Source of the DNA: Ophiosphaerella korrae | Taxonomy: Eukaryota; Ascomycota; Dothideomycetes; Pleosporales; Phaeosphaeriaceae | Direction of reading: 5' to 3' | NCBI GenBank assembly: GCA_028456385.1 | Contig: JALNQF010000064.1 | Location: forward strand, 1 to 64,000 | DNA: 64,000 bases | In this document: one piece after another, positions 34,319 to 57,129 of the stretch | Numbering within the stretch: the first letter of the stretch is position 1 | Layout of the letters: each line of letters begins with the position of its first letter | Position numbers and translations under genes: made by a program | Notes under the pieces: generated by a model | Database searches by the model: none | Told to the model about the DNA's origin: nothing | What the model saw: only the letters and a program-made list of their open reading frames with translations

Positions 34319-34806
34319 ATGGCAATTCCACGGAATCTAGTATGTGTTGGTAGACAGATCAAAGGCGCAAATATAAGCTTGCAATATCCTACATTTCAAA
34401 TATCACGTTGTTTCTCCAATACTAGCAAGCCACAGAAGCATGAGTGGGTGGTAATCCTACCTGATCGGGAGGGTGCTTTAGAACTTAGGCGAAATCTACG
34501 ACCGTGAGTGAACATACGCCTTCGAACTGCTGGCGTGAGTATAAGATGCTAATGTCCACCAGACAGCACCTGGCAAATCTGTCTTCATATCCAAATGACT
34601 TCTGGCTCTGGGGAGGACCGTTTCTCCGTAGACCGTCAAACGATACATTAAACGAACCTTTAGGCTCGATGCTACTTGCTTGTGCTGAGTCTGCAAGCGA
34701 AGTATTGGAAGAACTCAAAAAAGACATCTACACAAAAGAAGGAGTCTGGGATTGGGAAAAAGTGCAGATCTATCCATTCAGGAGTACTCTAAGGAAGGCC
34801 ATGTGA
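34319..34806 (+). CDS. YCII-like (dimeric alpha/beta barrel) protein, possibly mitochondrial
   Basis: Exons 34319-34503 and 34563-34806 give 142 aa over a 59-nt intron. After a basic, Ser/Arg-containing leader (MAIPRNLVCVGRQIKGANIS and on) that looks like a mitochondrial presequence, the domain reads EWVVILPDREGALELRRNLRP, QHLANL, GSMLLACAESASEVLEELKK, DIYTKEGVWDWEKVQIYPF, the pattern of YCII-related small proteins. Their exact reactions are mostly unknown; fungal pathway clusters often contain one. It is the leftmost gene plausibly belonging to the cluster. Downstream neighbours are MFS and the di-metal oxidase. Confidence 0.8.
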
Positions 34807-35897
34807 TAGAAATTCAATACCAAATCTTGCGATCCTGTGTAACTCAGGTCCAATGTGCAATACAACTCAATTTCATGTAGCAATGTTCCAGATAATGCAT
34901 TACGCACAAGGCTTCTATCATTTCGTAGCTTCGGCTCTTTCGCCTCGCCATTGACTTGAATCGACCGCTCGTCAGAAAAACCATCGTTCTATGACGAGCA
35001 CAAGTGAGATCTCAAGAGTAGCGATGAATCCAATCGAGATAGCACCGTATCAATCAATAGAGCACATCATTGTTCTCCTATCGATGCAGTGGGTTTTCGT
35101 AGTAGAGTTTGACTAGGCGTTTCGCTCTCGGCGTTCAAGTTGTAGCACGCACATGGTGCAAACTCTATGACCATGTTAGTGTCAAACTTAATGATAACGC
35201 AATCGTCGGTGCTGCACATTGGCAACAATGATTAGCGGTAAGGCAATTGTTCATGATGTCACAGGAAGAGATGAACGCGCAAGGAAGTGGGGCCATATTG
35301 TCACTGCATTCCTGTTAATCTGCGCTATTTCAAAACCCTTAGCTTCCTTATGTTTCGGCAGATTCATATCTGTGTCGGAATCCACGTACTATCTATTGAC
35401 CGAGAAATATTGGCCGACTCAACCTCGACCGAAAGCTGCAGGTGGCCGAACGAAGCCGCGCATGTGTTGACGCAGCAAGTGCCTAAGCCTATACTGCATT
35501 GTGGATTCCGAACATGCATTTTCGGACAAAACCTCTCAAATTTATGGACCATTTGTGATTATCCGCTGAGGAAAATGGGTTGGACGCTCCATTTCCAGCA
35601 AATTATCCCATAGCCTCAATTGCTTGAGAAGAGCTGACTTGCATATAGGAAAAGTCTTGAGTATCTGGAAATAGACAGTACGCCTGAAGGCTCTCCTATA
35701 ACTCTATATGTAATGGCTGGTTGAGCTAGTAACCATACTATCATAAAGCATTGTAGCATGCCAGATTGTATCCTCAGGGCTTGTGGAGGACCAAGATAAT
35801 TTTGAGCGTGTTATTCCTTGTAGTCAGTTTTGCTAACATAAGAATCTTGCGACCAGAAATCTCCACGCTTGTGGTGCAAGATCTATTGCACAACCGC
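34807..35897. other. Intergenic region inside the cluster
   Basis: Short frames (for example 35219-35470 and 35287-35613) lack recognisable motifs; I could not build an exon chain. It may hold relics of a lost gene. Confidence 0.4.
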
Positions 35898-37463
35898 CTA
35901 TCCTGCAGCAAATTGACTTTTCGATCTGATTCTCTCCCCATATCTCCAGAATAGGAGGGGTGCAGGTATTCCAATAACGATTCCCATAACTGCGAGCAAA
36001 GAGTTACCCCATCCATATCCAAGACTTTGGTACATTAGTGGTGCGAAAAGCGGAAAACCGAATCCGGCGAGTGAGCGTAGGACCATAGTAGCGGCACCCG
36101 CACTTGCAGCATACTTTGGGTAAGTGTCGAAGATATATGTTTCCGTAGATTGGAAGCACATAATTGTCCCGGCTGCGTATATTCCTGCACCAACGTTGGG
36201 CATGACCCAATGAATATGCTTTTGAGCGCTCCATCCATACCAAAAAAGACCAGTGGGAACCAGAACAGCACCAATAAGTATGGCTGGCACACGGAACTCG
36301 GGCTTTCCAACATTGTTATTTTGCGCCTTCAGGTGACAATACACCATGTCATTGAAGGGGGCGGTTATTTGTGCACCGAGGAACAGACCTATACCAATGG
36401 AGATGTAGTTTAGCCCACCGGTGCTAATCTTTTCATGATACACGTCCGCCCAAAGACGTGGGAAACTCGAAAGCATCAAATAAATGACGCCATTGAGATA
36501 CGCCTGATACAAAGCTATGACTTGTATGATTGGTTGGGTAATGATGAGACGGAATGGTCGTTCGATGGCGTTGGCGAGCGTCTGGGTAAGTTTGTAATTG
36601 GTGTCAAATTCGGTGTAGAAGTCTTGCCTGCCCGTTTGTTTTCGCAGTCGGGCAGCATGCTGTTGAAGAATCTTGGGGGCAAATGACTCTTGAAGGAAGG
36701 TAAATGCCACAATCGAGATCGCACCACAAGCAGCTGAAGTGGCCCAGAACGTCCATCTCCAGCTAGTGTATTGTGCAATATAGCCTCCAGCAATCGGGCC
36801 AATAGCTGGGCCAAGAAGAGGTGTTAATGAGTAGATGCTCATTGCTTGACCTCTTCGCTCGGGGGGGAAGCAGTCGCTCACAATGCCTCCTCCGATTGCA
36901 AGCGGGGCACTACCGCCTAGCCCGCCAAGGAATCGAAAAATAAACATCTGCTGCTTGGTTTTGGCAAATCCGCATCCAAGATTGAAGCAGAAAAACCACG
37001 CGTTTGAGACTTGGAGAATGGGTACGCGGCCGTAGATCTCAGATAAGGGAGCGAGTAATAAAGGGCCAATGGCGTAAGCAAGAACGAAGAGAGAAATTGT
37101 AAGTTGCGCTTCAACTTTACTAGTGACATTGAGGTCACGCATCGTGTTTTGGAGGCCGGGAGCTACCATGGTAGATGCTACTGGAGGTATCAGCGTAAAA
37201 GCCGAGGCGATGAAGGTTGTGGTAATCTTTTTCCGGGTAGTCCAGTTTCTCGGGTGATCAGGGCTTCCTTCAGACCACTCAACCAACGGTGGGATATCTG
37301 CATCTTGAGGTAAGTGTCCCTGAGGTGCTACTAAAATAAATTTCCTTCCTTTAGGCTTAGCTGCTAAGGTGTAAGCCACAACTTGAAACGAGTGAGAGTC
37401 GAATGCGCAATTACAAAGGTGCCGTGATGCTTGTTTACTAGCAGGAGTCGGCGACGAAATCAT
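35898..37463 (-). CDS. Major facilitator transporter, DHA1 drug:H+ antiporter type
   Basis: A single 521-aa exon with about 12 hydrophobic helices. The cytosolic N terminus ends EGSPDHPRNWTTRKK, a common entry into helix 1. Motif A-like LSEIYGRVPIL follows helix 2, with FRFLGGLGGSAPLAIGGG and SLTPLLGPAIGPIAGGY (DHA1 motif C-like) in helices 4-5. Such proteins export toxic or secreted metabolites across the plasma membrane. It is divergent from the di-metal oxidase with a 374-bp shared intergenic region, which supports co-regulation with the pathway. The first ~45 residues are poorly conserved, so an internal start is possible. Confidence 0.92.
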   Translation of the reverse strand: MISSPTPASKQASRHLCNCAFDSHSFQVVAYTLAAKPKGRKFILVAPQGHLPQDADIPPLVEWSEGSPDHPRNWTTRKKITTTFIASAFTLIPPVASTMVAPGLQNTMRDLNVTSKVEAQLTISLFVLAYAIGPLLLAPLSEIYGRVPILQVSNAWFFCFNLGCGFAKTKQQMFIFRFLGGLGGSAPLAIGGGIVSDCFPPERRGQAMSIYSLTPLLGPAIGPIAGGYIAQYTSWRWTFWATSAACGAISIVAFTFLQESFAPKILQQHAARLRKQTGRQDFYTEFDTNYKLTQTLANAIERPFRLIITQPIIQVIALYQAYLNGVIYLMLSSFPRLWADVYHEKISTGGLNYISIGIGLFLGAQITAPFNDMVYCHLKAQNNNVGKPEFRVPAILIGAVLVPTGLFWYGWSAQKHIHWVMPNVGAGIYAAGTIMCFQSTETYIFDTYPKYAASAGAATMVLRSLAGFGFPLFAPLMYQSLGYGWGNSLLAVMGIVIGIPAPLLFWRYGERIRSKSQFAAG

Positions 37464-37837
37464 GGCGAATAAGACACCAAGAGGTCTCGATCATTCGCTT
37501 TGTCTGAAAATGCTTAGATGTTATCAGAAACTCAGGATATGTCTTAGTTTATATACAACTACGCGTCAAATCCAGTGCCAGGATTTGGAAGCTTGGACTG
37601 GGCCGCACTAAAAGCGTTTCGATTCGAAATTGGACCAAATAGTTTCCGACCGAGCGAGTTTTCGGAGCAATTTTGTATGAGTTTATTCTGCCTTATCTTT
37701 ATCAAGACACTTGAAGTCTATCTACGACACTAGCGCACTTCATTTGCTGTGGAGAAGCAAAATTGGAAGGGGGCAGGGAGATATAAAAGAGTAAACGCCA
37801 TCCCACCTGCTCTTCAAGAACTTCCTCCATCACCAAT
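37464..37837. promoter_or_regulatory. Bidirectional promoter region, MFS exporter / di-metal oxidase
   Basis: A 374-bp gap between divergent starts. A TATA-like ATATAAAAG at 37781-37789 lies about 50 bases before the oxidase ATG. It contains a TTCGATTCGAA palindrome (37618-37628) and a CCGACCGAGCGAG...TTCGGAG stretch near 37648-37670. Confidence 0.55.
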
Positions 37838-40108
37838 ATGGATCTCTTGTATGTCCCTTCATTCGACAGCTACTACTTGTTCCCCTCTCTAGCTCTCTTA
37901 GTACTTATCATCTACTGCCTTCTTGCAGCGAATAAATCAAATGTCGTGTTCCACTCTCCCACGACTCAGAACACCTCACTCCCAGACGTAAAGATACAGA
38001 ATTCTTACTGTCGGTCTTCTACGGAAAAGAAATTTTATCAGAAGCTGTTCTTTGAGCTCCAGAATCTCGATGACTTCCCGGATGCACTGGAACCAGCTCG
38101 GGATGCGCTGCTCGCTTTGCTCTCCCGAGGCATTTCGTCCGGCTTAGAGAACCCACAGGAGAGTATAATGTCGATTCCCTCTTACGATGCAAAGAAGGTT
38201 TGGAGCTTTGTCGAAAGGGAACATGAGAAAGCCATGACACAATGGCGAAAGTATCTGGAAAGACGAAACCTGGGCCACGGACCGGAGCTCTTCTCGACGC
38301 TCGATGCAGCTAGGACTTGGTTGGCCTGCCAAGCTCCTATCAAACTTGTTGATGGTGCCTGGTTAGCGCACGTTCATAAAATCACCACTCCATTTTCCCT
38401 TCGGGGGATTACCAAAGATGCATGGCAGGTGTTTTCGGAGGAGCTCGGCGATGGTGACATTTCGAAGCACCACGTAAATCTCTACCGGCAACTCTTGACA
38501 GAAGTTGGGCTGCGGCTTCCAGACTGCGATTCTGCCGAATTCATACATCTGAACCAATGGAATGATTTCGAAAATGCATGGGCCTGGGAAGCTGCGGTGG
38601 GCCAACTCGTCATATCACTTTTCCCACATGAATTTCTCCCCGAAATCCTCGGCTTCAATATGCACTACGAGCAAATCACCCTCAACACGTTACGGGCAGC
38701 GCACGAGCTCAAACCCCTTGGGATAGATCCAAACTATTTCCTTCTTCATGTCTCCATCGACAACGCAGATTCCGGGCATGCAGCTATGGCTACTCATACT
38801 GTGATTCGCTATCTCGAAATTGTCCGGTCCACTGAGGGGGCAAAAGCTGTTGAAAATACCTGGAGACGTGTTCAAGCTGGGTATGCCATGTCTACTGCAC
38901 TGGGATCCCACTCGACCAGCCAAGATGATGCGAGTTATTTCGTCAAAGAGATGCCTGTCACATCAATCGACCCCTTGACTGCGCAATTGATCAACATTCT
39001 CAAAGCCAAGGCTTTGGTGTCACATGAATACCACCTTCAGAGCCGGGCGCGCATCGGGGGCCATTCACTGCCCGAGTGGCTCTCACCGAGCGCATGGGCT
39101 CATCCAAATCCGTCGGTACATTTACGGCTTGTCAAGGAATTGGGCCGCGCTAGGCCGTGGGTCTATGCTGGGGATAGCGGCAAAAGCCTTCTTGTGAAGG
39201 AATTGCAGTGGGGAGGCCGCATGTTCGGTGCTTTCACACAGAGCGAGGTCGCCACTCTCAGGGCGTGGATAGACTCGCTAAGCAAAGAGGGCAATACTGC
39301 ACCCTATTGGAGATTCACTTCAAGAAAGCAATTGACTTCTGCGGACGCAGTGATGAAATTGCAGGATCCAGTTACCCACTATCCGGTTGTCGCCATCAAT
39401 ATCCCAAATGATACAGAGCCTTGGAGTTTGAAAAGGCTTTCCGATAGTGAAGGCTCCAGGCCACTGAAAGAACCTTGGTCAGAGACACAGGGGTTTACGC
39501 TCTCCTCTGATCTGCGACTACCAGATCTGCTTGTCCTCTGGTTCGCGCACATTGGTTTACTAGAGAACACTATCACCACACCTTCGCGGACAGCTTCTCC
39601 TCTCTATGCAAACATCCTGATCATCCTACGTGCTCAAGCAGGATTTTCTGTTGAGACTGAGATAATCGCTGGAATGGATGAGATGAACCGATCGTCTTGT
39701 CGGAGTCTTGTGGATATTGGCCTGGAGATACTATCCCACGACCGGGAATTCGCCAATTGCCCATGCACGTGTCTGAACGATATATTCGGACTCGCTAGTA
39801 ATCATGGAATATCTGAAGAAAGCCAAAGTCTGGCCAAAGACATGCTTCGATGGGCTCAAAAACCTAAGCAAAACCTCGGTTGGCTGTTGGGCCTAGCCTT
39901 TGCCTTCATACCAGTAAAGAATGCAGTAACAAAAGCAACTCAGCTTCTAGGACAAGAAGGTCAACTTGATTTGAAGAAAATCGTGGCCAGGGAGGAAGAG
40001 TGTCTCGTAAATTGTGCTAATTGGTTGGAGAATATGAACGAGCCCGAGTATTTCCGAATGCTCCGTGGTTATCAATATTGCTCGGCCGTGCTCAGTCATT
40101 GCATATAA
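37838..40108 (+). CDS. Membrane-anchored haem-oxygenase-like di-metal oxidase
   Basis: One exon, 756 aa. Residues ~13-31 form a single membrane anchor (PSLALLVLIIYCLLAA). The central domain (about 165-350) has the pattern of fungal iron-containing redox enzymes of the haem-oxygenase-like oxidase superfamily: EELGDGDISKHHVNLYRQLL (E202 and H212, a Glu-x9-His spacing), FLPEILGFNMHYEQ (E269, H276), and LLHVSIDNADSGHAAM (H304, D308, D311, H314). Assigning these as iron ligands is inference. Related enzymes carry out N-oxygenation, desaturation or C-C cleavage with O2 on amino-acid-derived substrates. The C-terminal ~370 residues contain KELQWGGRMFGAFTQSE and an uncharacterised region seen in fungal homologues. 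Strong candidate for a key oxidative step of the cluster. Confidence 0.85.
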   Translation: MDLLYVPSFDSYYLFPSLALLVLIIYCLLAANKSNVVFHSPTTQNTSLPDVKIQNSYCRSSTEKKFYQKLFFELQNLDDFPDALEPARDALLALLSRGISSGLENPQESIMSIPSYDAKKVWSFVEREHEKAMTQWRKYLERRNLGHGPELFSTLDAARTWLACQAPIKLVDGAWLAHVHKITTPFSLRGITKDAWQVFSEELGDGDISKHHVNLYRQLLTEVGLRLPDCDSAEFIHLNQWNDFENAWAWEAAVGQLVISLFPHEFLPEILGFNMHYEQITLNTLRAAHELKPLGIDPNYFLLHVSIDNADSGHAAMATHTVIRYLEIVRSTEGAKAVENTWRRVQAGYAMSTALGSHSTSQDDASYFVKEMPVTSIDPLTAQLINILKAKALVSHEYHLQSRARIGGHSLPEWLSPSAWAHPNPSVHLRLVKELGRARPWVYAGDSGKSLLVKELQWGGRMFGAFTQSEVATLRAWIDSLSKEGNTAPYWRFTSRKQLTSADAVMKLQDPVTHYPVVAINIPNDTEPWSLKRLSDSEGSRPLKEPWSETQGFTLSSDLRLPDLLVLWFAHIGLLENTITTPSRTASPLYANILIILRAQAGFSVETEIIAGMDEMNRSSCRSLVDIGLEILSHDREFANCPCTCLNDIFGLASNHGISEESQSLAKDMLRWAQKPKQNLGWLLGLAFAFIPVKNAVTKATQLLGQEGQLDLKKIVAREEECLVNCANWLENMNEPEYFRMLRGYQYCSAVLSHCI

Positions 40109-40222
40109 GAAGCATTCAGGTTTGAAGCAAAGTGCCCTCAAGTCAATGTTACACAAAGAAAATATGAGCGCAAACCAACAAGAAACGTATTGTTTTACAT
40201 TCAATAGTGACAACTAGTAGTC

Positions 40223-40738: not shown

Positions 40739-40754
40739 TGTACTTACTACGATA

Positions 40755-40982
40755 CAAGGCATAGGTAGTGTAAGTGGGCCCCGGGCGGCAGGGGCGCGCA
40801 GGAGTAGCTTAAGTCTGGTTTAGTCTTGTTTTACATACAAACTTCAGTAAGGCGTGGACACGCAGGCGGCCGAAAATCACAGATTTCAATACAAAATTAC
40901 AGAGGATTTGATGTGAAATAGTCGGGTAGAGGTATGGCTTGACCCCTGCCGCCCGGGACCCACTTACACTACCTATGCCTTG
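40755..40982. mobile_element. MITE with 40-bp inverted repeats and TA target duplication
   Basis: Ends are CAAGGCATAGGTAGTGTAAG and its complement; 40-bp arms differ at one position. TA flanks both sides (40753-40754, 40983-40984), as for Tc1/mariner-type insertion. No coding capacity; 228 bp. Confidence 0.8.
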
Positions 40983-41036
40983 TACCATAGTAGTACTCTG
41001 TAATACATCTGCTGCGGCTTTAGTGTATAGCTAGGA

Positions 41037-41588: not shown

Positions 41589-42509
41589 ATGGATATTAGT
41601 ACAGCGCCCAAGAAGATGGCCGCATTGGAAACCATCGACTACGAAGCACTAGCCAAGAAGGATCCTCTCGAAATCCAAAAACTTGTCAATGCTAGCCGAA
41701 ATCTAGGAATGTTCTATCTCGACCTCCGTGGCCCTAGCACAAAACTCATCTTCGAGGATATGCCTACGATATTTGAAACTGCCCAGAACTTTTTCAGTCT
41801 TCCTCAGAATGCGAACGAGAAGGTTCAGAGTCTTTGTGAGGGAATGGAACGAGGGTATATATGTCAAGAGACCCGAGAATTTCATGATATTAACAAGCTT
41901 CTTTATCTAGTTATCACGCTGGAAACGGGTTTGAATATTACGAAGTCCGTGAACGCAGCACTATGCCACATCACTTTGCTTACATACTATCTCCAGATCG
42001 CCCGAGACGAGTTCCAGCTTGGAAAATGGACATTGCCTGCAACTTTTGAGCCAGAGCGAGATCGAATCGCCCGCATCGTACGAATATTCAATCAGTCGGT
42101 TCAGACCATTCTCTCAGAGCTATGTACCGCTGCAAACATAAAGATTCCGGAACTTAGCGATGACCCCGCTGTGCCCGGCGATACCGCTTTGAAAATTGTA
42201 TTTAAGCCCCCAATTCACGACGCTGGAAAAGTGATTCATCCCTGGCATACTGACTTTGGCCTAATCACACTATTGTGGTATGACGAAGAAACTACGCAGA
42301 TACCTATATATGATGAGAAGGGGTATCAAATTGAGGATTGGGAGACGGTACCGGTGACCGATGGCTGCGTTCTTATCAATGTAGCAGATTATCTTGCGTC
42401 GAAATCTAGGGGATTCTTCCACTCGACTACGCATCGAGTCGTTGCACCACCAGGGGCCAAAAGAACGAGGAACGGGATCATCTATCTCCTGCGCCCATAC
42501 AGCACGTAG
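41589..42509 (+). CDS. 2-oxoglutarate/Fe(II)-dependent oxygenase, isopenicillin-N-synthase-like
   Basis: Exons 41589-41854, 41911-41944 and 41997-42509 give 270 aa. Introns of 56 and 52 nt together keep frame, so the unspliced ORF hides them; splicing replaces a poor stretch with ERGYHAGNGFEYYEIARDEF, which fits the family. Iron ligands are His184 and Asp186 in HPWHTDFG and His246 in FHSTTHRV. Arg258 (KRTRNGIIYLLRP) is the likely 2-oxoglutarate-binding arginine, though the usual following Ser is absent. It is shorter than the usual ~330 residues: both termini look trimmed. Enzymes of this family hydroxylate, desaturate or close rings on small molecules. It lies between the di-metal oxidase and the AspRS-like gene. 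Confidence 0.85.
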   Translation: MDISTAPKKMAALETIDYEALAKKDPLEIQKLVNASRNLGMFYLDLRGPSTKLIFEDMPTIFETAQNFFSLPQNANEKVQSLCEGMERGYICQETREFHDINKLLYLVITLETGLNITKSVNAALCHITLLTYYLQIARDEFQLGKWTLPATFEPERDRIARIVRIFNQSVQTILSELCTAANIKIPELSDDPAVPGDTALKIVFKPPIHDAGKVIHPWHTDFGLITLLWYDEETTQIPIYDEKGYQIEDWETVPVTDGCVLINVADYLASKSRGFFHSTTHRVVAPPGAKRTRNGIIYLLRPYST

Positions 42510-43518: not shown

Positions 43519-45107
43519 ATGACTCCCATGGTACGACCAGAGACCTGACTCTGAAGATAATGAATCCTGGTTGTTAATGTAATCCACAGCCATATTCCGC
43601 ATACACGATTGGTGGACAGCAGAACACGACACTCGATGCAAGAATCCATTCCATCGCGAAGTCTGAACACTCAGAAAAGATCACATTGAGTTTGAGGGTA
43701 TCTCACACTTTTCTCGAAGCCTACATCGAAGCTACAGCTGTTGAGAAACCAGTGTGGGAGGATGCGATGGGACTCACGGTTGAGTCGATTGTACGCGTAA
43801 CAGGCTGTCCATACTCATCCAATTTACAGGAGAATGGTGAAAGTGGCCAAAATGATGCCATCCAATCTATTGGACTCTTTGTCAAAGGTCTTGAAATAAT
43901 CGCATTGGCATGCCCAGATCTTCCACTTCCACAGCTAAAATTATCTGGGCTAGAAGAACGGCTCAATAACCGGATTCTCGACGTGCGACATGCTGGCGCT
44001 GGAGCGATTTTCAAACTCCACTCAGGCATGTGCCAATTAATAGTCGAATTCCTATGTTCTAATGGCTTCCATTGGATTCATACTCCACGAATTATCAAAG
44101 CAACAATTACGGGCGACACCGAATATTTTGACTTACCCTATTTTGGTGACAATGCATGGCTGGCCCAAAGCACTCAGCACCACAAGCAGATGGCACTATC
44201 AATGGACATGCAGCGTGTGTTTGAGATTGGCCCGGTTTTTCGAGCCGAAGTAAAATCCCTGGCATCCTCAAGGCATTTGACCGAGGTAGGTTACGCTCTC
44301 GCTTTGTTTTGTCGGACATGCTCTCCAGAGCCTTGCTGAAATGATTTCTACTAGTTCACCGTCCTCGACATAGGCATGGTCTTTCAGGACGACTACCATG
44401 AGGTAGTTGAAATGATCGAGTCAATGCTTCTGTTTGTGTTCAGAGGCTTGCAAGAGCGCGAGCAGTATCGCTCACTCATTGAGATCGTGAAAAAACTATA
44501 CCCTTCTTCTAGGGATTTCAAGATTGGTCTGGGCGAAACTGGAAAAGTTCCTCGCATAACATTTTTCGAGGCAAAGCGCATTCTGCGCGATGAACTAGGT
44601 CTCGAAACAGATGACAGTCAGAATTTCACGTAAGTGACTGCAGAAAACATGACTGAACTATATCTCATAACTCTACACAGAGATGCAGAGGAGGCCGCTC
44701 TAGGGCGTTATTTTCGAAATACGCCTCACAGAGGCTGCACAGACATTTTCACAATTGATCAGTACCCGGCTTCAATGCGTCAATTTAATTCGCAGGGGAA
44801 TAAATTGGCCCCAGGTCTCTCAAATGCCTGGGACACTATCGTCGGAGGTCGGGAAATATGTTCTGGAAGTCAGCGAATCAACTCGTATGATGAGTTATGC
44901 ACGGCAATGCGCGCTGGTGTTTGCGGACCGCCACTCGACCCTGATGCTGAGAAATGGAAATCATACTTGACTGCCTTCAAGACTGGTATGCCACGTCATG
45001 GTGGCTGTGGCCTTGGAGTAAATAGGCTACTGCAGGGATTCTTAGGCCTCAATGACGTCCGTGAAGTCACTTTGTTTCCCAGAGATGGCAACAGACTGGC
45101 ACCATAA
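43519..45107 (+). CDS. Aspartyl-tRNA-synthetase paralogue (class II), cluster-resident
   Basis: Proposed exons 43519-43530, 43590-44285, 44355-44629 and 44681-45107 give 469 aa; the tiny first exon is uncertain, the others are firm. Residues ~20-115 are a degenerate OB-fold anticodon-binding domain; the catalytic core begins near residue 135 (ERLNNRILDVRH). Motif 2 reads PVFRAE...RHLTEF (near 220-237) and motif 3 GLGVNRLL (Arg443). Several usually invariant positions differ from housekeeping AspRS: QSPQ is QSTQ, GEEI-S-GAQR is GREICSGSQRI, the RPF segment is RQF, and motif 3 has Asn before the Arg. The adenylating core is preserved but the tRNA-binding region is shortened and altered. Either a resistance copy of AspRS or an aminoacyl-AMP-forming ligase used in biosynthesis; I favour the latter. 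Confidence 0.85.
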
Positions 45108-45236: not shown

Positions 45237-46049
45237 TCAACCAAGTAAATGAGGATACAGGTATGTTTCAATATATTTTGAAGAGACCCCAAGCATTGCG
45301 GCATCGGATATTGCCAGCTTCATTCGTGCAATGTATTCCCTTCGAATGGTGCTAGATTCGTTCACTTCTTGGACCAAGTAGACCAGCACATTTTTTAACA
45401 TCCTGTCATTGTCTGCAAACATGAGTAAAAACGGATTTTTCTTGAATATAATGCTGAATTACGTACATTGATGTTCACCTGAGGTCGTATCATTCGTCTT
45501 CTGGCCGAGGCAATGGCTCAAGGGCTCGCTAGAAAGGTTTACTGAGGATATCGAGTCTCCTTGAGAAGATGAATTTGCTATCATCTTAGGATCCGTATTT
45601 CTCTCAGAATCTGACCTAACATGCCCGCAGCCAACTGATCGAGTCGTTTCTTCTCGGCTTTTGTGTTCTGTAAGAATCTCAACCGCTCGAGTTGTCTTCT
45701 GACCTTCCACTTCTGGAACAAGGAATCTTTCCGTAACGAGGTCAATTTCTTTTTCAAAGAAGTAGTGTTCTTCAATCTTTTCGTGTAGTCTCAAATATTG
45801 AACATCGCGAGGTGTAAGGAGGAATACAATCCCTTCAACATAATCCGTTTCTCTTGATTTGACAATGTTTGCGCCGCCGCGACTGTTGACTTGCCACTTA
45901 TAGCCGTAGAGAATTCCCTTGGAGTGTAGTATACTCTCTTTGCATCGCTGTGCCATCTGCTGAAGGTGCATGTTACTGCCATATGTAAAGTAGAATCGTC
46001 TGTCATCGGGTTCCTTTGTCAAGCACGCTGGATCAATATAGCTGGCCAT
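45237..46049 (-). CDS. Gamma-glutamylcyclotransferase-like protein
   Basis: Exons 46049-45467 and 45412-45237 (54-nt intron) give 252 aa. The family start FYFTYGSNMHLQQMAQRC carries the YGSN substrate loop, and Glu in YLRLHEKIEEHYF fits the catalytic acid position. The C-terminal exon (VLVYLVQEV, IRREYIARMKLAISDAAMLG) matches the helical end of fungal GGCT-like proteins. A Ser/Thr-rich insert (about residues 145-190) is not typical. GGCT enzymes release 5-oxoproline from gamma-glutamyl amides; in this cluster it could unmask a gamma-glutamyl-protected amine or close a lactam. The first in-frame ATG is at 46049. Confidence 0.8.
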
Positions 46050-46388: not shown

Positions 46389-47959
46389 TCAGCCTAGTAT
46401 AGGTGCTTTCTCTGTTACGGCGTTGAGGAACCAGGCACCTTGCATAAATGCACAAATTGGCTGTGGTGAAGCTCTCCAGAAGGTGCCCAGAAACTGGCCA
46501 TCTGACATCATGACGGTACCCACCAGATACCGTAATGGTTCACCTGGTATCGAATTTAAAGATTTTTTATCGGCTGCAAGTATATTTCCTTTACGTGGAA
46601 TCAGGGGAAACCGAGGCTGTGCAACGATACGTTGTAGAACGCATACTCCGGTGTCCTGGTTCGACTTTACGAGACTGCGAAAAGCGTCTTCCGTAGGGAC
46701 GTCAGTTCCAAATACTATTCCCTTCCCTTTCCCACTGGCAATTGGTTTTAAAAGCCAATCATTTTTAGAGCTCTTCCCAGCGTAAATTTCTTCGAGTTTA
46801 TTACTCATATCCTTCGACCCTGCGATATAAGTTTCTGCCAAACCTCGCTTTAAGCACTCTGACTGTGCACGCGAAATGACTCCTTGCTTAGAAACTAGAT
46901 TTCCCAACTCTGACGCGATAATGGCAAGCATTCGCTTATCATGCGCGAGGAACATGGTACGAAGATCATTCAAAGATCGCCAAGCGAGCTCCTGCAAGAT
47001 TTTCTCTGGGAGAGCAAGCAGCTGTGCTTGGCGCGCTCCAATCACAACGACATCAATTTTCATTGGTGTGTGTGTTTCCTTCTCGAAGAAAAAATCCGAA
47101 GACGAGGTCGTTGCAATAAGCTTAGACCCAGAGGGGGACTGGTTATCGGGTATGACGTCGAGGTGCTCAGGCCGAACAAATCGAACTTTGCCCAATCCGT
47201 GATTCTGGAAGTACGATTGTATGTTGACAAGTTCGACATGTGGGATCCCATCCCCTAGAAGAAACCATGTTGTTTCATAACAACCAAATCTTTCCTTTAT
47301 CATCGCATCAACCTACAATTCAAGCGTCAGTGAGTTATTCGCGTCTATGCAGATGGAAAACAACTAACCTCGGGAGCTGTGGTCTCAAATATCGCCTCCT
47401 CGGGTACTTCCTTTCTGTGAAAGTTGTCAATCGTGGTTGCGAGAATGTAACCACTCAGAGGATAACGGCAATTGATCTCGCAAATTTTGAATGGGCCGAG
47501 ACGACGGTGTTTGGTTGCGGTATCTTTCGTTATATTCTCTGAGTCTTCGCTGATGAGTATGTCAGGTCTCCAGAGACCACTGGCCTTCCGATATTCCCCT
47601 TTCTCGCATCTTGCTGTGCTGAGCCACCGGAGCAATGCCTCGGCCTTCGGATCTATTGGCATTCGCTCCCAAAATCTCGCATCCATATCATCCCACCATC
47701 TATCGATGATATCACAGACAGCTATGTGAAGACTTTCGCATAGCTGCCGCAATTCATTCATGCGGCTCTGTGGCATAAATATGGGAATAGCCTGGATAGC
47801 CTTCTCTAAGCTTTCTGGCCATGGACCTAGGCTCTTGAATACTGCTCGCAAGGCATCAGCGTCCATAGACGAAGAAGCTGCTGTATGAGGGTCGGTCAAT
47901 CTCGCCTGGTTGACCGAGGCGGCGGAAGGGTCAACTTGAACAAATTCTGGAACGTCCAT
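46389..47959 (-). CDS. ATP-grasp family ligase-like protein
   Basis: Exons 47959-47369 and 47312-46389 give 504 aa, joined TAPE-VDAMIKERFG over a 57-nt intron. The N-terminal half has RWWDDMDARFWERMP, WLRPDILI-like sequence (LWRPDILISED) and ICEINCRYPLSGYILA, the pre-ATP-grasp signature where a Glu/Asn pair helps bind metal. The C-terminal half has DWLLKPIASGKGKGIVFG, the nucleotide-binding Lys and Gly-rich loop of ATP-grasp enzymes, then VCVLQRIVAQP and YLVGTVMMSDGQ. It resembles an uncharacterised fungal ATP-grasp group distantly like glutathionylspermidine-synthase-type ligases. Expected chemistry: carboxylate activation as acyl-phosphate and amide formation. It is divergent from the PaaK-like gene. 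Confidence 0.75.
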
Positions 47960-48591
47960 TTCGTATGATAGAGAATATAAACAGTAAATGATTAAATCTT
48001 GACTGTGAGACAATAATTTAGGAGATTTAATCACTTTAAGTCGAGAGTTTCGTCTCCTGTTCAACCACCCTCATGAACAGCATCAGTAGCAAAGCTCGGC
48101 AGTTTTCATGACAAGCCTCCGGAGTATTACCTAAACTGTTACCAGCAATTACCCTGGCAAACCCCACAGGGTATGAGCTAAACTGTGTCAGTGCATTCGG
48201 CCCTACATTCCCCGGAGTTTGGAAGACGCTAGAGGGCATTAGCATGTCGACTCGTATCTCTGGAATGTAGCGTGATTTTTATTTTCCTTAGATTGGAGCA
48301 GAAATTTTGCTAGTCTTTAGGCTCTAATCTTTGTAAAAGAAGGTTCAAGCTGCATGGATGCGAGCCGAGATGCCAACACCCTGTACATATGGAGCTGATC
48401 ACGTCGCCGTATCAATGAGTTGGCCGAAGTTCAAGACGCTAAGGTGCGCCGAGAATCAAGAGAGTATGAATCCTGCATAATTAATGTACGACGGGGAGAT
48501 ATAAGTAAAGTAATGGGCTACAAACTTGATTTAACAAGGCATTCTGTCTTTGTTCTTTTCCAATTTTCTCAATAAAAAGAGAGGCCTCACC
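47960..48591. promoter_or_regulatory. Bidirectional promoter, ATP-grasp / PaaK-like genes
   Basis: A 632-bp gap between divergent starts. A TATA-like GATATAAG lies near 48499, and three GCCGAR hexamers lie at 48364, 48423 and 48448. Confidence 0.45.
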
Positions 48592-50082
48592 ATGGGTAAA
48601 CCGAAACTCCCACCACAAATGAACCATTACCATGGTCCTTTTACTCTGGAACAAGTACTGGCTGTTGCCAAAATTCACCCATTCTATTCCGATGAGCACA
48701 TTTCGGCGCCTGACTATGATGAGGTGGCACAAGCGGCGCGGAACCCTTCGGGCATCTCTGCAAATCTACAAGAGATGCCCATTACTAAAAAGGAAAGACT
48801 GGCAGCAGTCACAAATCGGCTTAGCCCAAACACTGCGGAAGCCAGGTCATTCCGAAGTGGGGCTATCATTGGTATCACTGGGGGTGGCAGTGGAAAGGGA
48901 GTCCCAATGCCTTTCTTCACGGATGCCCAAGAGACTGTAGCTATTCGGTCCTTTGTAGGCAAACTTCTTGTCAAATGCGGCGTCGTGGGGGACGGAGATG
49001 TTGCCATTGTGCTCAATACAACAGGCAATCTATACCGGTTCGTATTCAGCATATCACATATTCTCCTATTACATCTGACATTGAATCCGGCTAGGTCTCT
49101 GAGCATTATATCTGAGAGTCTGGAGCATGCAGGTGTATCCACGTTGATGGCGGGTCATACTATGGACCCAGATCGCCTTGTCAGGACTTGCCAGCAGCTG
49201 CAGCCCAATGTTCTCGCTGGCGCCCCTAGCCAGCTCATCCAACTCGCTCGTCATGTTTCAAAGACAGGTGCGAATCTCAGTTTCGAAAAAATCATTTACA
49301 CTTCGGAGCCGCTCCCGCTTCCCCAGCACGCATACTTGAATCAAATTTTCGGAGATACTCATCGGCCCATATCGTTTGGATCTATCTACGGAAGTGCCGA
49401 GGCCGGCCCATGGGCTGTTGCTAATCATAATCTTTCAGGCCACCACGGAGAGCATGTAGATTTGATATATGACAAGAACGCCATGGTTGTTGAGATTATC
49501 CCCGCGGCATCGGCAAATTCGGACGAAAGCACCGTACCAAAAGATACCGAGAACGTTCCGCATGGTAGTATCGGTACTATCGTCCTTACTTCGCTTCAAA
49601 AGCTTCGCCACCCTTTGGTGAGGTATTATACTGGAGACGTTGGTTCCTTACACGATTTGAGTTCCGAGATGTATTCGTACATGGGCGAAGGTGGTCATGA
49701 TCTCGGCGTTTTACGAATGTATGGGCGGGATCGTACGGAATCGTTCAAGTGGCAAGCCAATTTCTACGAACTAAGTGCTATTGGAGACGTGATGAAAACG
49801 GCCAATTGGGGGGTCTTGGATTGGCAGATCTCGTTGGATATTAACAATGATTCTGGGGAACATATAATGGAAGTTAAACTCATCCGACCCGAGCCTTCCA
49901 CAACAATTCTGTCAGCCAGTGAGCTCAGGAAGGAGCTCTCCGGGTTTTTCAACGTATACCCAAAGGTTGACCACTTGTTCAAAATCCGAAGTGTTGGACT
50001 ACAGGATATGGTTCGAAGTGAAACAGCTGGTAAAATCATCAGATTAGTAGACAAGACAAAATCAACCTCAGCGAAGAAATAA
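48592..50082 (+). CDS. PaaK-like adenylate-forming (AMP-binding) enzyme
   Basis: Exons 48592-49037 and 49095-50082 give 477 aa. The 57-nt intron is in frame; splicing gives NLYRSLSIISESLEHAG. The start has a strong CACCATGG context. Signatures of stand-alone phenylacetate-CoA-ligase-like enzymes are present: ITGGGSGKGVPMPFF (phosphate-binding loop), FGSIYGSAEAGPWA, VRYYTGDVG (ATP-binding Asp) and GRDRTESFKWQANFYE (hinge). It has no carrier-protein or condensation domain, so it is not an NRPS module. Likely activates a small carboxylic acid as its adenylate, for CoA transfer or direct capture by an amine. Substrate unknown. Confidence 0.85.
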   Translation: MGKPKLPPQMNHYHGPFTLEQVLAVAKIHPFYSDEHISAPDYDEVAQAARNPSGISANLQEMPITKKERLAAVTNRLSPNTAEARSFRSGAIIGITGGGSGKGVPMPFFTDAQETVAIRSFVGKLLVKCGVVGDGDVAIVLNTTGNLYRFVFSISHILLLHLTLNPARSLSIISESLEHAGVSTLMAGHTMDPDRLVRTCQQLQPNVLAGAPSQLIQLARHVSKTGANLSFEKIIYTSEPLPLPQHAYLNQIFGDTHRPISFGSIYGSAEAGPWAVANHNLSGHHGEHVDLIYDKNAMVVEIIPAASANSDESTVPKDTENVPHGSIGTIVLTSLQKLRHPLVRYYTGDVGSLHDLSSEMYSYMGEGGHDLGVLRMYGRDRTESFKWQANFYELSAIGDVMKTANWGVLDWQISLDINNDSGEHIMEVKLIRPEPSTTILSASELRKELSGFFNVYPKVDHLFKIRSVGLQDMVRSETAGKIIRLVDKTKSTSAKK

Positions 50083-50770: not shown

Positions 50771-52497
50771 ATGATGGCAATTCCTTCAGCTGGTATGCCG
50801 ACAGAGGCGGCCATGAGCCTGATAAAGTCACTTCTTCGTGAGGATCTCGACCCGAAACTCAATTTGGCTACGTAAGTCTAATATCTCCATAAAAGGTATC
50901 TAATACTGATTGCATCCGGAGATTTTCCACCACCACGTTTGACGACTTACCGATCGACATCGTATGCGATACGTTACGGAAAAACATGTCCAATCAGCAC
51001 GAATATGAAGGGATTTCTAGGTAAGTCAAATGTCTCACGTGGGGGTGACAGACTTCTGACGTGCAAAGGATTCACCGAGAGTGTTCAGATATTCTTGCAG
51101 CACTATGGCATGGAGGCAACAATGCAGAGAGACCAATTGGTACTGCGACTACGGGTTCCTCTGAAGCTGTTATGCTCGGTTGTCTAGCCATGAAGAAGCA
51201 ATGGGTAACGGAGAGACGGAAATTAGGAGCGGATACGTCATGTCCGAATATTATCTTCAGTTCTATTGCCCACATGGTCTGCGCCAAGTTCTCTCAGTAC
51301 TTCGACGTTGAAGCCAGAATTGTACCGGCAACACCTGCAAGTGGCTATGTCATGGATCCTGAAACCGTGGCGCAGTTCGTGGACGAGAATACAAGTAAGC
51401 CTAACATGTAAAACTCGTGGATATTCAGCTTACCACCTCTTTCGATGCAGTTGGTTTAGTTGCTGTTCTTGGAAGCACCTATACTGGGCATTATGAGCCC
51501 GTTCGAAGGATTTCGGATGTTCTTGATGACATCTACTCTCGTACAGGCATAGATGTTCCGATACACGTCGACGCTGCGTCGGGGGGCTTAGTGGCACCAT
51601 TCGCACAACCGGAACTAATATGGTCTGCATATCCAGTGTAATAAGAAGATAGTACCTTAAAGCTAACGTATAAAGGGATTTTCGATTGAACAGAGTTCGT
51701 TCTATCAACGTGTCTAGTCATAAGTATGGTCAGGTTCCGACATCACTTGGCTGGGTATGTACGCTGGTGAACAATCTATACCACTAGCCAAATACTAAGA
51801 CCTCACAGGTGGTTTGGAGAGATGCTAACTGTATTCCACAAGATATGATCTTCGATGTGGAGTATCTTGATCAAGTATACCAATCATGGACCCTGAGTTT
51901 CTCGAAGCCGAGTATTCAAGTCGTTTTACAGTATTACAACTTCATTCACAATGGATTCAATGGCACAGCAAGAATTATTCGAGACTGCATACTACGTGCA
52001 CAGGATCTGAGCCTCATGCTGGAGAAAACCAAAAGGTTCAAATGCATCTCGAGTATCCACAATTACCAAGAAAGGGAACAACAACTCGGCAGCATGCAAA
52101 ACCATCCAAGCGAATTGACTACTGGGAAAAAATATAATTTTAAGAAAGAAAAAGGTAATAGCACTGAGGGCCACGCACATCTCGACTGTTCTGGATTACC
52201 GGTTGTCGCTTTCGCTTTCAGTAACGGCTTTCAGTCGGCTAATCCCGGGGCGAGACTCGAAGCTCTTTCGAGACATCTTCGTAAACTTGGATATTCTGTC
52301 CCCTGTAATAATTCTCCTTAGGCCTGAATAGATGGGCTGAAACTAACAACACTACAGGCTGCAATATACCACTCTTCTCTGGATCGGTGAGCGTGCTCCG
52401 CATTGTTGTTAGACCAGACATTGATGAGCACATCATTGACCGCCTAATGAAGGATATAGACCACTGTATTCGAGAAGCTGTACCCACTAGTCCATAG
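50771..52497 (+). CDS. PLP-dependent amino-acid decarboxylase, glutamate-decarboxylase-like
   Basis: Seven exons (50771-50871, 50922-51020, 51069-51394, 51451-51637, 51694-51754, 51809-52304, 52358-52497) give 469 aa with all frames and motifs restored. [13 protein letters not shown] binds the cofactor phosphate, HVDAASGG holds the aspartate that pairs with the pyridine nitrogen, and [10 protein letters not shown] carries the Schiff-base lysine (Lys248). The C-terminal [20 protein letters not shown] is family-typical. An unusual Lys/Gln/His-rich insert lies around residues 340-385. It is diverged from housekeeping glutamate decarboxylase (short N terminus, no calmodulin-like tail), so aspartate, glutamate or a related acid could be the substrate, giving beta-alanine, GABA or another amine building block. 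Confidence 0.85.
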
Positions 52498-52889
52498 GTT
52501 TAGTGAAAGGCGAATATAACCCAGAGTGCCTACCTTAGTAGATTAATCGAAAAGACAAATTTTTTATATCTACCGGAACCAATTTTGGTTCTAACATTAT
52601 CGTCAGTTTTTCGGTTGGTTAGTCAGCCTGATCAATAACTACGCATTTGAATTACAGTCAAGTTTTGTGTGCAGTCTACATAGTGCTCTAGCCTATACGA
52701 TGAATAGTTGATCCGGCGTCTGGGGAGCACATTGCGAAAATGAGAGTGCTGAATTCAATCTAAAATTGTCTAGTACGACGAGCATTATGCATTACAAGAA
52801 CGCAACCGTCCAGTAGATCCTAACCCACAGTCTAGTGAGTGCTCTCCGAGAAAAAGTACTTCTCTCAACACTATACCTGTTTTATCTGA

Positions 52890-53620
52890 TGTAACTTTCG
52901 GCTGCAAGGCACGGCCCGACTGGCCTAGACGAGCGGGTCCTCTTACAAAGCTATCTCTGATGTAACTTTGGGTGATAGCTGTAAATTAGACTGCTCGGCT
53001 TCTCCGTCCTCTTTCTTTATAGTTGTGTGGGTACAAAGTACAAAGCCCGCCCCGAATAACCTAGACGAGTGGGTTCTCTCGATGCAAGTTTCGGCTGCAA
53101 GGCACGGCCCGACTGGCCTAAACGAGCGGGTCCTCTTGCAACGCTATCTCTGATGCAACTTTCAGCGATAACTCTAAATTAGACTGCTCGGCTTCTGTGT
53201 GGGTACAAAGTACAAAGCCCGCCCCGAATACCGAAAAATTTGCCGAAGTGGCCGCCAGGGCTTTAGTCTTAGCTACCGATCAAAACCTAAACGTGTGGGT
53301 CGCAAGTGCTCCACTAGCGGCACGCTAGTAAGCGCCGAGTAACGTCAAAAAGTTGAAAACCCTCTAAACATTGATGTATATGGACTAAAATTGAGCTTTA
53401 AAATTAATTTAAGTAATAATCAAGCGTTGCGATAGACTTGTAAGAATCATGGTGATGTAATTTTGTTCGTAAGCCCAATGTGACGCGTCATCGCAGCTGA
53501 TTCAAGCTTGTCCAGCGATCCGCAGAGCCCCTACTAGCTAGCGGCCGGTGGGCTCTCCCGATACAAATTTCGGCTGCAAGGCACGGCCCGGTTGGCCTTG
53601 ACGAGTAGGTCCTGACAGGG
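52890..53620. repeat. Repeats of about 193 bp, two full copies and a partial third
   Basis: TCGGCTGCAAGGCACGGCCC recurs at 52898, 53091 and 53570. The first two copies are 193 bp apart and share CTGCTCGGCTTCT and ACAAAGTACAAAGCCCGCC; the third is partial. Non-coding. Confidence 0.8.
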
Positions 53621-53629
53621 CTACATGAA

Positions 53630-54967
53630 CAGTTGGACGCGCGGTAGCAATTGCAGTAGTGCTTGCGCCCTATAATATACCTACGTAAGCTATCACCTCA
53701 TATAGGCACTACCGGCGAAAATAACTCCCTAGTATCGCTCCTTTATTAATTTAATATACTTCTAGTAGTTATTAATAGTAAGTTTCTCCTACTCCTCTCG
53801 AAGGAACTAGGATACCTACTCTAAAGTAAGCTAGTAAATAGGTAAGAGTTAGGATAGAGTTAGCTTAGCTTATATTAGACATTAACCCTAACCTAACCCC
53901 TATCTTATATTATCACTTATTATAGGAGTATTTTTATATTCAACAGTTAAAATCGATTAATTAGATAAATTTTTATTACTTCTTACATCTATTTAACTTC
54001 AAAGCTGTAATAAATATTCTATTTTAAAGTTTTTTATTATATAATTATATTAATTATCGAATAATAATTAAATCTTATAATCTTAGAAGCTATTAAAAAT
54101 ACTTACTATAAAGAGAGTACTAGGGAATTAATATTATATTAGTAAACTAGTAGGGTATAATAGCTAAAGTAAGATAAATACCCCCTATCTATTATAATTA
54201 GATATAATCAATTGATGATATTACGTGATATAATAGGGTTCGGATTATGTAGTTGCGAAGGATTGAAAAGTTTATAAGAAAAAATATAAATCGTGACGTA
54301 GCTGAGAGATCTTAAATGGTATGAAAATGCGAGAGCTATACTGCTAGGTTCTGTTTACAAACTGTGACAGAGTTACTAAGTCATAACGTAGTTTTATCTC
54401 TAGTGTGACTTTACTCAACTTTCTAATTAGCCAATTCACTGTAGGTAGAACTCAGCGATACATGGGCTACCCGTCTCTCATTTGCTACTTTGAAATTTGA
54501 AAAAACTCTTAGAGTCGCGGCTAAGTAGGGGGATACAGCGGAAGAGGCGATTGATAGCATCCACGAAACGACCGACAGCATGACCAACGCCGCGGTATTG
54601 TCAGTTCTAGACTATTGCCACAGAGGAAGAAACGTTATAGAATATTAGTATATCAACTCTGGTTTAATAAATGTGCAGATGGTAGACTTGAAAAGTCAAA
54701 TAGCAAAGTCGTATCGAACGCGGTGCGCCTCCCGACTGAAGCATTGACGTTACATACCTTTGAATGATGCACAAGTATCAAGCCACTCTCAAACATCCAG
54801 GCATGCTTCAATCCTTGGTCTTTTTGATATTATGACTGGTTTGCGACAATTTTCTCCTGAACCGCTTTTTCGTACTTCTTCAACCACGGTCCAAATTGGA
54901 AGTTTCTCATGTTAATTTCGTTATTTCGTGGTTCCGATGTGGGTTTTCTTACATCGATTCTTTAACA
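53630..54967. other. AT-rich RIP-like island
   Basis: Extremely TA-rich sequence (especially 53680-54240) with stops in all frames, like other RIP-damaged repeats. No gene. Confidence 0.65.
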
Positions 54968-57129
54968 CTAAGGTCGGAGCGAGAATTCTGGATATGCCTT
55001 CTCTATACCGAATTTCTTTCCTAAAATTACAAGCTGGCCGACAAAGATCATCATGCCAAAAGCCCTTCTGTTGCCTTCCTTAATTGCATGCTGCACTAAT
55101 CCTTCACACTTGTCCCATTTCAGAAATCCAAGTGCTTCAATGTTCTCCTTCGTGATAAGCGTATTAAACAGATTATATACTGCGCCACCAGCCTTGTACT
55201 TAATTGGCGCAGTAAAGGGGTGCTTCTTCCGCTTATACAATTCTTCAGTGACGAATGGCTTTACGGCCTCCTTTAGGATCCATTTCTCATTAAAGGTTTG
55301 AGTCTCTGGATCCCACCTAATCTTCATACTTGGCGGCAGGGACATGACATATTCAGTGAGACGGTGGTCTAGGAAGGGTTGTCGACCTTCAACGCTATGC
55401 GCCATTTCACAGCGATCTCCAAGGACAGTTAAGAAAAGTTTCGCAAGCGTACATTTAGTCCAGATGTAGAGAGCTGTGTGAAAGGGATGCCATTTCCTGT
55501 TGATTAATTCACGTGTGCATCCGTCAAGAGCATTAACTGCTGTTAGGCGTCTATCGCTTTCGCCAAATTCGGTAGACACCCAGGGTGACAAGAGGTCATC
55601 GTCGAGAGCGCAATATTCTGTGAAGTCAAGAGACGAAATATTGTTTACTTGTCTTCGGACAGCCATTGGAGGGTCGTTTGGGTGATACGAATTTCTCCCT
55701 TCCAGCTCTTTGATGGTTTTAAGACGTTCTTCCTCTGTGAGCGAGGACCCCACCCATGAGTGGTCTGGCTCCCTTACGAAGTCCTTGAGCAGCTCCTTGT
55801 ATCCGCCAAAATGCTCATCTGATCCTTCTCCTGTCAGAACAACTTTGATTCCTGCATCTCTTGCAAGCTTCGAAAGCATGAATTTACCGACTGTACTTAA
55901 GTCCTTCCAAGCTATTTCGTTATGCCAGACTGCGTCTTCGATGTTTGCAACAAATGTTTCCTCGGTCATCTCAATATAGTGCATCTTAACACCGAGCCAT
56001 TCTGCAGTTCTGCGAGCAATCGGCTCTTCATCATGCTCTTCCCCAATGAACTTTACACTGAAGCAATTGATAGCTTCAGACGGTGGTGCGGTGCCTAGTT
56101 GTATGCCTTCAGTCTTCATCAAATATGTGACTATGCCTGCAATTGAACTTGAGTCAATACCGCCGCTAAGGAAGACTCCAATCGGAACGTCGGCTCGTAG
56201 CCGGTCTCTGATCGCTTCAACCAGTCGATCCTGTACGCCTTGAATCATCTCCTTCTCTGTCCTGGTTTCAATATCGTGCTTATATTAATTAGCTGGGAAG
56301 CGTCGCAGCGGAAAAATCGATCTACCTTATCTTGAAACCTAATGTCCCAGTACCTTTCCTGGGAAATGCTATCAAAAGATTTTACGATAAGATAGTGGCC
56401 AGGACTTATCGAACCGACACCCTTAAAAAGTGTCCTCTGATCACAAAGCCAACCAACATCTTTAATACTTTGCACATCCCATTGGGGCTTCCAACCAAAC
56501 GGAAGAAATGCTTTTGCCTCGGAAGCTAGCTGATATCTCGTTAATTAAGCTTAGATACCACAGTTCGAATAGCTTACCAAAAGATTGCCGTCGTGGATAG
56601 TATAATAAAGTGGCTTTATAGCATATCGGTCACAGGCGGCAACAAATAGTTGCGACTTTGAATCATAAAGGCATAACGAGAACTCTCCTCTCAAATGCGA
56701 TAGGAAGGATAACCCATACTCTTTGTACAAGTAGATAATAATCTCAGAATCGCACTTACTCTTGAATATGTAGCCCTTAGCGCTGAGCTCTTCTCTGATC
56801 TCATGATGTCCGTATAGTTCCCCATTGACAATTGCATGGACATTATTATCAGTATCATGGAATGGTTGCTCAGCTTCAGGGCTCAGGTCGACAATGGTGA
56901 GGCGATTATGACCAAGTGCTACAAGGTTCAATCAGTCGTGTGCTTCCAATATAGTAGGGATTGATCGCATACCAACTCTTCCACTCTCATTGATCCAGTG
57001 CCTTCCTGAATCTGGTCCACGATGTTTGATAGTATCTAAGCTTTGGTCTATCGCTCGACTCAGCTTTTCGCGATCTCCAAATAACGGCTTATGGCCGCAC
57101 AGAGCCACCAAACAGCTGATGCCGCACAT
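54968..57129 (-). CDS. Asparagine synthetase, glutamine-hydrolysing, AsnB-like
   Basis: Exons 57129-56973, 56918-56578, 56529-56326 and 56278-54968 give 670 aa. The protein starts MCGISC, so removal of Met exposes the Cys nucleophile of a class II glutamine amidotransferase. RGPDSGRHW, GHNRLTIVDLSPE, AIVNGELYGH and LRGEFSLCLYDS follow. The synthetase domain has LSGGIDSSS (from Leu271), the pyrophosphate loop, and LTGEGSDEHFGGY. Length is nearer bacterial AsnB-like enzymes than the fungal housekeeping ASN1 type (about 570 aa). It converts an aspartate-like carboxylate to an amide through a beta-aspartyl-AMP intermediate, or in pathway versions uses another amine acceptor. It forms the right edge of the cluster. 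Confidence 0.92.

Follow-up and report, generated by a model that had tools for sequence, protein, structure and literature searches.

Ten neighbouring genes at positions 34319-57129 of a 64,000-nucleotide stretch of the Ophiosphaerella korrae genome (contig JALNQF010000064.1; hereafter the window, on contig C601 of a 63-Mb genome) look, from their sequences, like an undescribed kind of natural-product pathway recurring in moulds and lichens. We hold it an even call that the locus belongs to a family of fungal clusters that use neither a non-ribosomal peptide synthetase (NRPS) nor a polyketide synthase (PKS), and whose core would be a heme-oxygenase-like diiron protein (HDO), a 2-oxoglutarate (2OG)/Fe(II) oxygenase and a tRNA-free paralogue of aspartyl-tRNA synthetase (AspRS). 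The product is best read as an amide derived from aspartate and N-oxygenated, in whose synthesis neither an NRPS nor tRNA would take part. This proposal follows from the co-location of the HDO and AspRS-like genes in other fungi, the adjacency of the 2OG gene, the altered sites of the AspRS-like protein and the closeness of the HDO to N-oxygenases.

An earlier note, made from this DNA alone, had described the ten genes as a cluster lacking a core synthase. All ten were found in place, their frames intact under splice models built by hand from introns that start with GT and end with AG. The absence of a PKS or NRPS core holds for the scanned open reading frames (ORFs), the only ones covered by the test, and the count of four kinds of carboxyl-activating enzyme was correct at the family level. 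The cluster described in the note is real and unusual, and the interpretation given there is partly supported.

Co-location of the core genes in Ascomycota

The core genes lie on the forward strand in the order HDO (37838-40108), 2OG (41589-42509) and AspRS-like (43590-45107), and a gene for an ATP-grasp ligase resembling Cp1B is found on the reverse strand at 46389-47959. Protein searches with the ATP-grasp, AspRS-like and HDO sequences gave 10, 759 and 959 matches, the best 10, 120 and 120 of which were listed. About 8000 candidates were scored in each search (7993 for ATP-grasp); every match is the representative of a 90% cluster, and a miss is no evidence of absence. The listed AspRS entries included an AspRS-like group of 56 members, fragments included, at mostly 53-73% identity (42% for the outlier P0054), the other AspRS entries being at about 33-42%. 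Members of the group came from Metarhizium, Beauveria, Cordyceps, Aspergillus, Penicillium, Curvularia, Parastagonospora and lichen fungi. Twenty-seven of the 56 were on a contig equal in length to that of a listed HDO (120 entries with 119 lengths, one occurring twice), against none of the 63 other, housekeeping AspRS entries (Fisher p 1.8e-11); one more entry came without a contig. This difference puts the co-location of HDO and AspRS-like genes beyond chance, and at the level of sequence records we regard it as well supported. Among the 39 named AspRS-like entries, seven of them from Aspergillus fumigatus, 22 matched the contig of a listed HDO.

The best match for each of the three queries came from Phaeosphaeriaceae sp. 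PMI808 (72, 87 and 83% identity for ATP-grasp, AspRS-like and HDO, respectively), with all three proteins on a contig of 94684 bases. In Curvularia clavata the ATP-grasp (yc1106_06671), 2OG-AspRS (06673) and HDO (06674) genes fell within four consecutive tags. The earlier note had staked its proposal on the co-location of at least four of its families in other fungi, and the C. clavata locus bears this out for part of the set, namely HDO, 2OG, AspRS-like and ATP-grasp. Twelve same-contig AspRS-like/HDO pairs carried serial-looking tags, which were two apart in eight pairs, one apart in three and four apart in one. The gene order HDO-2OG-AspRS found here fits most of them.

The 2OG and AspRS-like genes were annotated as a single protein in A. 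fumigatus, P. cinerascens and C. clavata. The 2OG domains preceded the AspRS domain in seven A. fumigatus entries and one P. cinerascens entry, as well as in one C. clavata entry by BLAST, and the window's 2OG enzyme, with its unspliced frame as query, was 46-57% identical to the N-terminal part of such proteins. These proteins miss either the last part of one domain or the first part of the other, and may be merged gene predictions. Fused or mispredicted, their annotation as one protein establishes from the deposited sequences that the two genes are adjacent in these three other species.

Close relatives of the ATP-grasp ligase (59-72% identical) were found in three named fungi, PMI808, Parastagonospora nodorum and C. 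clavata, besides two fragments at 57-58%, one of which (P0005) lies on a contig equal in length to that of the listed HDO P0143. C. clavata and P. nodorum are Pleosporales by look-up and PMI808 by its family name. The ligase gene occurs with the core in C. clavata and PMI808, and the P. nodorum tags are HBH98_213670 for the HDO and HBH98_213720 for the ligase; by these records the ATP-grasp gene is a companion of the core in Pleosporales. Cp1B itself was not among the 10 ATP-grasp matches listed, which says little about fungi without a match.

Features of the three core proteins

The AspRS-like protein was modelled with 465 aa and two introns, the tRNA-synt_2 domain extending across two exons; a 5' exon was not found in the splice modelling. 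In the tree the AspRS-like clade was monophyletic. Counts from the clade alignment showed that the class II motif 2 and motif 3 arginines of the ATP site are kept (R325 in 41 of 42 rows and R531 in all 42), as is Arg485. However, the yeast residues that we take to be those recognising the anticodon were largely lost among the non-gap clade rows, R119 being found in 0/34, F127 in 0/35 and Q138 in 10/35, against 32/32 in the housekeeping enzymes. The class II AspRS catalytic region and the oligonucleotide-binding (OB) region are common to the AspRS-like protein, fungal AspRS and ErdS (AspRS-DUF2156), and strands are still predicted for the OB region, which aligns to AspRS. The AspRS-like protein differs from both enzymes in these anticodon residues, in its substrate loop and in its motif 2 loop. 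To judge from the alignment, the parts that read RNA seem to be gone from it. Elsewhere in the same genome there are AspRS genes with standard residues. A 1064-aa open frame at contig C334:309127-310113 encodes a standard-residue AspRS with a long C-terminal extension, and is probably an ergosteryl-aspartate synthase (ErdS).

ErdS uses aspartyl-tRNA as a donor, and the AspRS-like protein could in the same way still charge tRNA or a tRNA fragment, the aspartyl-tRNA then being the donor for an amide or ester. The predicted OB strands would suit such an enzyme, and tRNA-dependent pathways exist in fungi, as the available part of one paper describes for AnkA (PMC12568646). We consider this decidedly unlikely: the clade has lost its anticodon residues and altered its motif 2 loop, the trio gave no match to a transferase domain, and the AspRS with the long C-terminal extension is a separate gene of the same genome. 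Resistant synthetase copies occur in fungal clusters, as with cladosporin and LysRS. The AspRS-like protein could likewise be a self-resistance copy of the housekeeping enzyme against an AspRS inhibitor made by the cluster, in keeping with its preserved catalytic residues. Yet a resistance copy must charge tRNA, which is at odds with the lost anticodon residues; moreover, the clade is monophyletic and branches deeply, unlike a recent duplicate, and in three genera its members are annotated in one protein with a 2OG enzyme. We find this explanation highly improbable. The available passages of an A. fumigatus RNA-seq study (PMC4551469) name only ordinary AspRS genes.

The 2OG oxygenase (270 aa, introns at 41855-41910 and 41945-41996) matched PF03171 (2OG-FeII_Oxy, E 8e-9) and PF14226 (DIOX_N). 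The motifs HTD and HRV were present in its spliced model; both were found in four of the five annotated 2OG-AspRS proteins examined, and HTD in all five.

The HDO gene encodes 756 aa matching Haem_oxygenas_2 (E 2e-34), with a second heme-oxygenase (HO)-like half at the C-terminus and, by eye, an N-terminal hydrophobic segment. Six candidate ligand residues of the HO fold, a set of three His and three carboxylates, were invariant in 59 of 59 HDO sequences. Relative to HxxxDxxH, which we take to be the ligand pattern of N-oxygenase HDOs, the fungal protein has three extra residues between the ligand Asp and the last ligand His. With plain Foldseek nothing matched at E <=0.001, the top matches being to SznF (E 0.028), and the sequence profile found a single weak match in the PDB, to RohS (9pfw, E 0.16). 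With a second-look structure aligner the fold was nearer to the N-oxygenases SznF, HrmI and RohS than to the other listed HDOs, a ranking that depends on this aligner and in which HDOs outside the list, for example UndA and AetD, may be as close. As modelled, the HDO is close to N-oxygenases in fold, and differs from these three in being a fungal protein of 756 aa with a second HO-like half. RohS was taken as an N-oxygenase from PDB titles; SznF and HrmI are so described in the available passages of a review (PMC13108848), which present the superfamily from bacteria. A scan of genome contigs with the 59-sequence profile, limited to two peptide patterns, confirmed none of 70 pattern hits as a bacterial relative. 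Orbilia oligospora has an HDO of the wider family (P0238) fused in one protein with PF00155. We take this domain to be an aminotransferase, and its presence is a hint that other fungal HDOs may act on amino compounds.

Proposed pathway and relation to known systems

In the pathway that we favour, the HDO would oxygenate an amine nitrogen and the AspRS-like enzyme would make the acyl-AMP of aspartate or of an aspartate-like dicarboxylate, which would be passed to an amine or hydroxylamine in place of tRNA; the 2OG enzyme would oxidise the aspartate-like unit. In the Pleosporales variant, the Cp1B-like ligase, and perhaps also an adenylate-forming (ANL) enzyme, would add further amides. The glutamate-decarboxylase-type (GAD) enzyme could supply an amine such as gamma-aminobutyric acid, the gamma-glutamyl cyclotransferase (GGCT)-like protein could remove a gamma-glutamyl group, the AsnB-type synthetase could amidate, and the major facilitator superfamily (MFS) protein could export the product. 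More cautiously put, the AspRS-like enzyme would activate an aspartate-like acid and hand it to a hydroxylamine or amine, and the unit would be oxidised by two iron enzymes. If the pathway is real, fungal secondary metabolism has turned a class II tRNA synthetase into a free-standing acyl-activating enzyme, and the HDO superfamily has a fungal role. It would define a class of fungal natural products without a core of the PKS, NRPS, terpene or ribosomally synthesised and post-translationally modified peptide (RiPP) type, present in Ascomycota including Beauveria, Metarhizium, Aspergillus and lichen fungi, and the sequence signature of the trio would offer cluster finders a simple rule.

Several points weigh against this pathway. 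The roles assigned to the yeast AspRS residues are assumed from general background. K306, which fits aspartate, was changed in 13 of the 42 rows (12 Asn, the Aspergillus/Penicillium group, and one Leu), and D342 was Gly in 13 of 42, with one gap, so that the substrate may vary within the clade. Likeness in fold to N-oxygenases is no proof of N-oxygenation, and the longer N-oxygenase chains may favour Z. Contigs of equal length stand in for a shared contig, and they were compared for the best 120 of 759 and the best 120 of 959 matches. A thirteenth tagged pair, from A. spinulosporus, was left out of the tag counts; its model numbers, which we take not to be positional, are 5023 apart. In Beauveria gryllotalpidicola and A. 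hancockii the tags are one apart and the AspRS entry is without a 2OG domain, leaving no annotated gene between, and the 2OG gene may be unannotated or elsewhere. In P. cinerascens the tags are four apart although the AspRS entry has a 2OG domain. Finally, six of the ten genes (ANL, GGCT-like, GAD, AsnB, YCII-like and MFS) are candidate members by position, and the product and enzyme roles are predicted from sequence.

The earlier note had suggested that the genes could assemble an amide without NRPS. The gene kinds fit this idea, but such a fungal pathway is already known: as described in the available part of Liu et al. (PMC12568646), E-64 is made in Aspergillus (cp1/cp2) by a 2OG oxygenase, an ATP-grasp ligase, an ANL amide synthetase and a pyridoxal phosphate (PLP) decarboxylase, the last of which is not essential. 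The window likewise holds one gene each for a 2OG oxygenase, a Cp1B-type ATP-grasp ligase, an ANL enzyme and a PLP decarboxylase, and no NRPS among the scanned ORFs. Its ATP-grasp ligase (504 aa, one intron) gave no useful Pfam match, and matched PDB entry 9CJN with E 6.9e-56. The four Cp1B catalytic residues R139, D141, E163 and N165 are conserved by position, given a hand-derived offset of 15 between chain and paper numbering; in the alignment they coincide with the WRPD and EIN motifs. In Botrytis galanthina and Basidiobolus ranarum (P0006 and P0007), a Cp1B-like ATP-grasp domain and a TauD-type oxygenase domain (PF02668) occur in one protein.

An E-64-type pathway, in which the 2OG enzyme makes trans-epoxysuccinate, the ATP-grasp ligase joins it to an amino acid and the ANL enzyme adds an amine, with HDO and AspRS-like proteins acting only as modifiers, would draw on these four catalytic residues and on the 2OG, decarboxylase and ANL genes, families also present in cp1 according to the available text (PMC12568646). 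However, 2OG and AspRS-like genes are also paired in A. fumigatus and P. cinerascens, two species without an ATP-grasp relative among the 10 matches listed (a weak absence), and we think such a pathway unlikely. The conserved core here is HDO, 2OG and AspRS-like, with GGCT-like and AsnB genes in addition, and the decarboxylase is of the glutamate type, whereas the paper looked for the lysine/ornithine type. Because of this difference, and because the 2OG and ANL enzymes were compared with Cp1A (the epoxysuccinate synthase) and Cp1D by family, we do not classify the locus with the E-64 clusters.

Bacterial hydrazine synthetase cassettes (Spb40, Tri28 and PyrN) bring together an adenylating domain of the MetRS type, a cupin and an N-hydroxylase, as far as the available passages of PMC11705231 describe them. 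In the fungal trio there is a class II AspRS in place of the class I MetRS, a 2OG/Fe(II) oxygenase with DIOX_N and 2OG-FeII_Oxy domains instead of the cupin, and an HDO, N-oxygenase-like by fold, instead of a flavin N-hydroxylase. Both place a repurposed aminoacyl-tRNA synthetase fold next to a member of an N-oxidising enzyme family and to a partner that we take to be a double-stranded beta-helix protein, and both are sometimes annotated as one polypeptide. The likeness is one of logic, not of family. There is a slim chance that the trio is a eukaryotic counterpart of these cassettes, evolved from different parts. The HDO would then make a hydroxylamine, whose oxygen would receive aspartate (or an acid like it) activated by the AspRS-like enzyme, and a rearrangement or oxidation driven by the 2OG/Fe(II) partner would lead to an N-N bonded or N-oxygenated aspartyl compound, such as a hydrazine, azoxy or nitro compound. 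Products of this kind would then be spread across Ascomycota, from entomopathogens to lichens.

While NRPS-free amide assembly by ATP-grasp and ANL enzymes is known, the conserved HDO/2OG/AspRS core across Ascomycota appears to be new. A search confined to the open-licence literature found no paper on such a cluster by title or abstract start, which is weak evidence.

Accompanying genes and flanking sequences

Gene orientation gave the two divergent pairs that the earlier note had claimed, MFS/HDO around the intergenic region 37464-37837 and ATP-grasp/ANL around 47960-48591. The predicted MFS exporter (35898-37463, reverse strand, 521 aa) matched PF07690 (MFS_1) with E 1e-42. The ANL gene (48592-50082, forward, 496 aa) encodes a candidate amide synthetase or CoA ligase that matched PF00501 (AMP-binding) at 32.7 bits, above the cut-off of 29.9; it is PaaK-like by an NCBIfam match below cut-off (NF045666, 66.6 bits against 300).

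The decayed repeats reported on both sides of the cluster were found on the right, as three diverged 66-nt copies at 52876-53613 between the decarboxylase and AsnB genes; on the left no repeat family of at least 25 nt was present within 27500-34300. The AsnB gene (54968-57129, reverse, 670 aa, three introns; PF00733, E 3.8e-74), with its MCGI N-terminus and SGGIDSSS motif, lies 2.5 kb past the decarboxylase on the far side of these repeats, and its membership is uncertain. A decayed AsnB-like copy with many stops, 54-56% identical to it, is located at contig C29:19690-20255.

It is possible, if doubtful, that the unit comprises only the core trio and the ATP-grasp gene, the ANL, GAD, AsnB, YCII-like and MFS genes being unrelated neighbours. 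Co-location was shown for those four genes, which were the ones compared, and the repeats set AsnB apart. Against this, one divergent intergenic region serves both the ANL and the ATP-grasp gene, only one place in the genome was found for either, and E-64 clusters pair the same two families.

The GAD gene (50774-52497, forward, 468 aa, six introns) matched the glutamate decarboxylase equivalog TIGR01788 with 419.3 bits (cut-off 380.4), and its SSHKYG aligned to the PLP-lysine motif of GAD. GAD-like sequences were found at two other places in the genome, on C579 and C9, and at a weak one on C45. The decarboxylase has an unusual insertion ahead of the last domain, and by alignment an Asn where GadB has Asp86, a position considered for its bearing on glutamate specificity; from these two features its substrate may be other than plain glutamate.

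Family assignments were clear for nine of the ten genes and fell short for the GGCT-like one (45237-46049, reverse, about 252 aa, one intron with several splice choices), which scored 19.4 bits with PF06094, below the Pfam cut-off of 22.8 (E 0.0016), though it contains the motif YGSNM. Butirosin biosynthesis follows a gamma-glutamyl protection logic, which the GAD, GGCT-like and ATP-grasp genes together recall; we offer this analogy as an idea.

The YCII-like gene (34319-34808, forward, 142 aa, one intron) matched PF03795 with E 2.5e-7. Outside the cluster, four of ten further ORFs gave family matches: FMO-like, an autophagy active-site domain, a HET domain and MitMem_reg. Between the HDO and 2OG genes, at 40745-40992, two inverted arms of 50 nt, 94% complementary and 148 nt apart, resemble those of a small MITE-type transposon.

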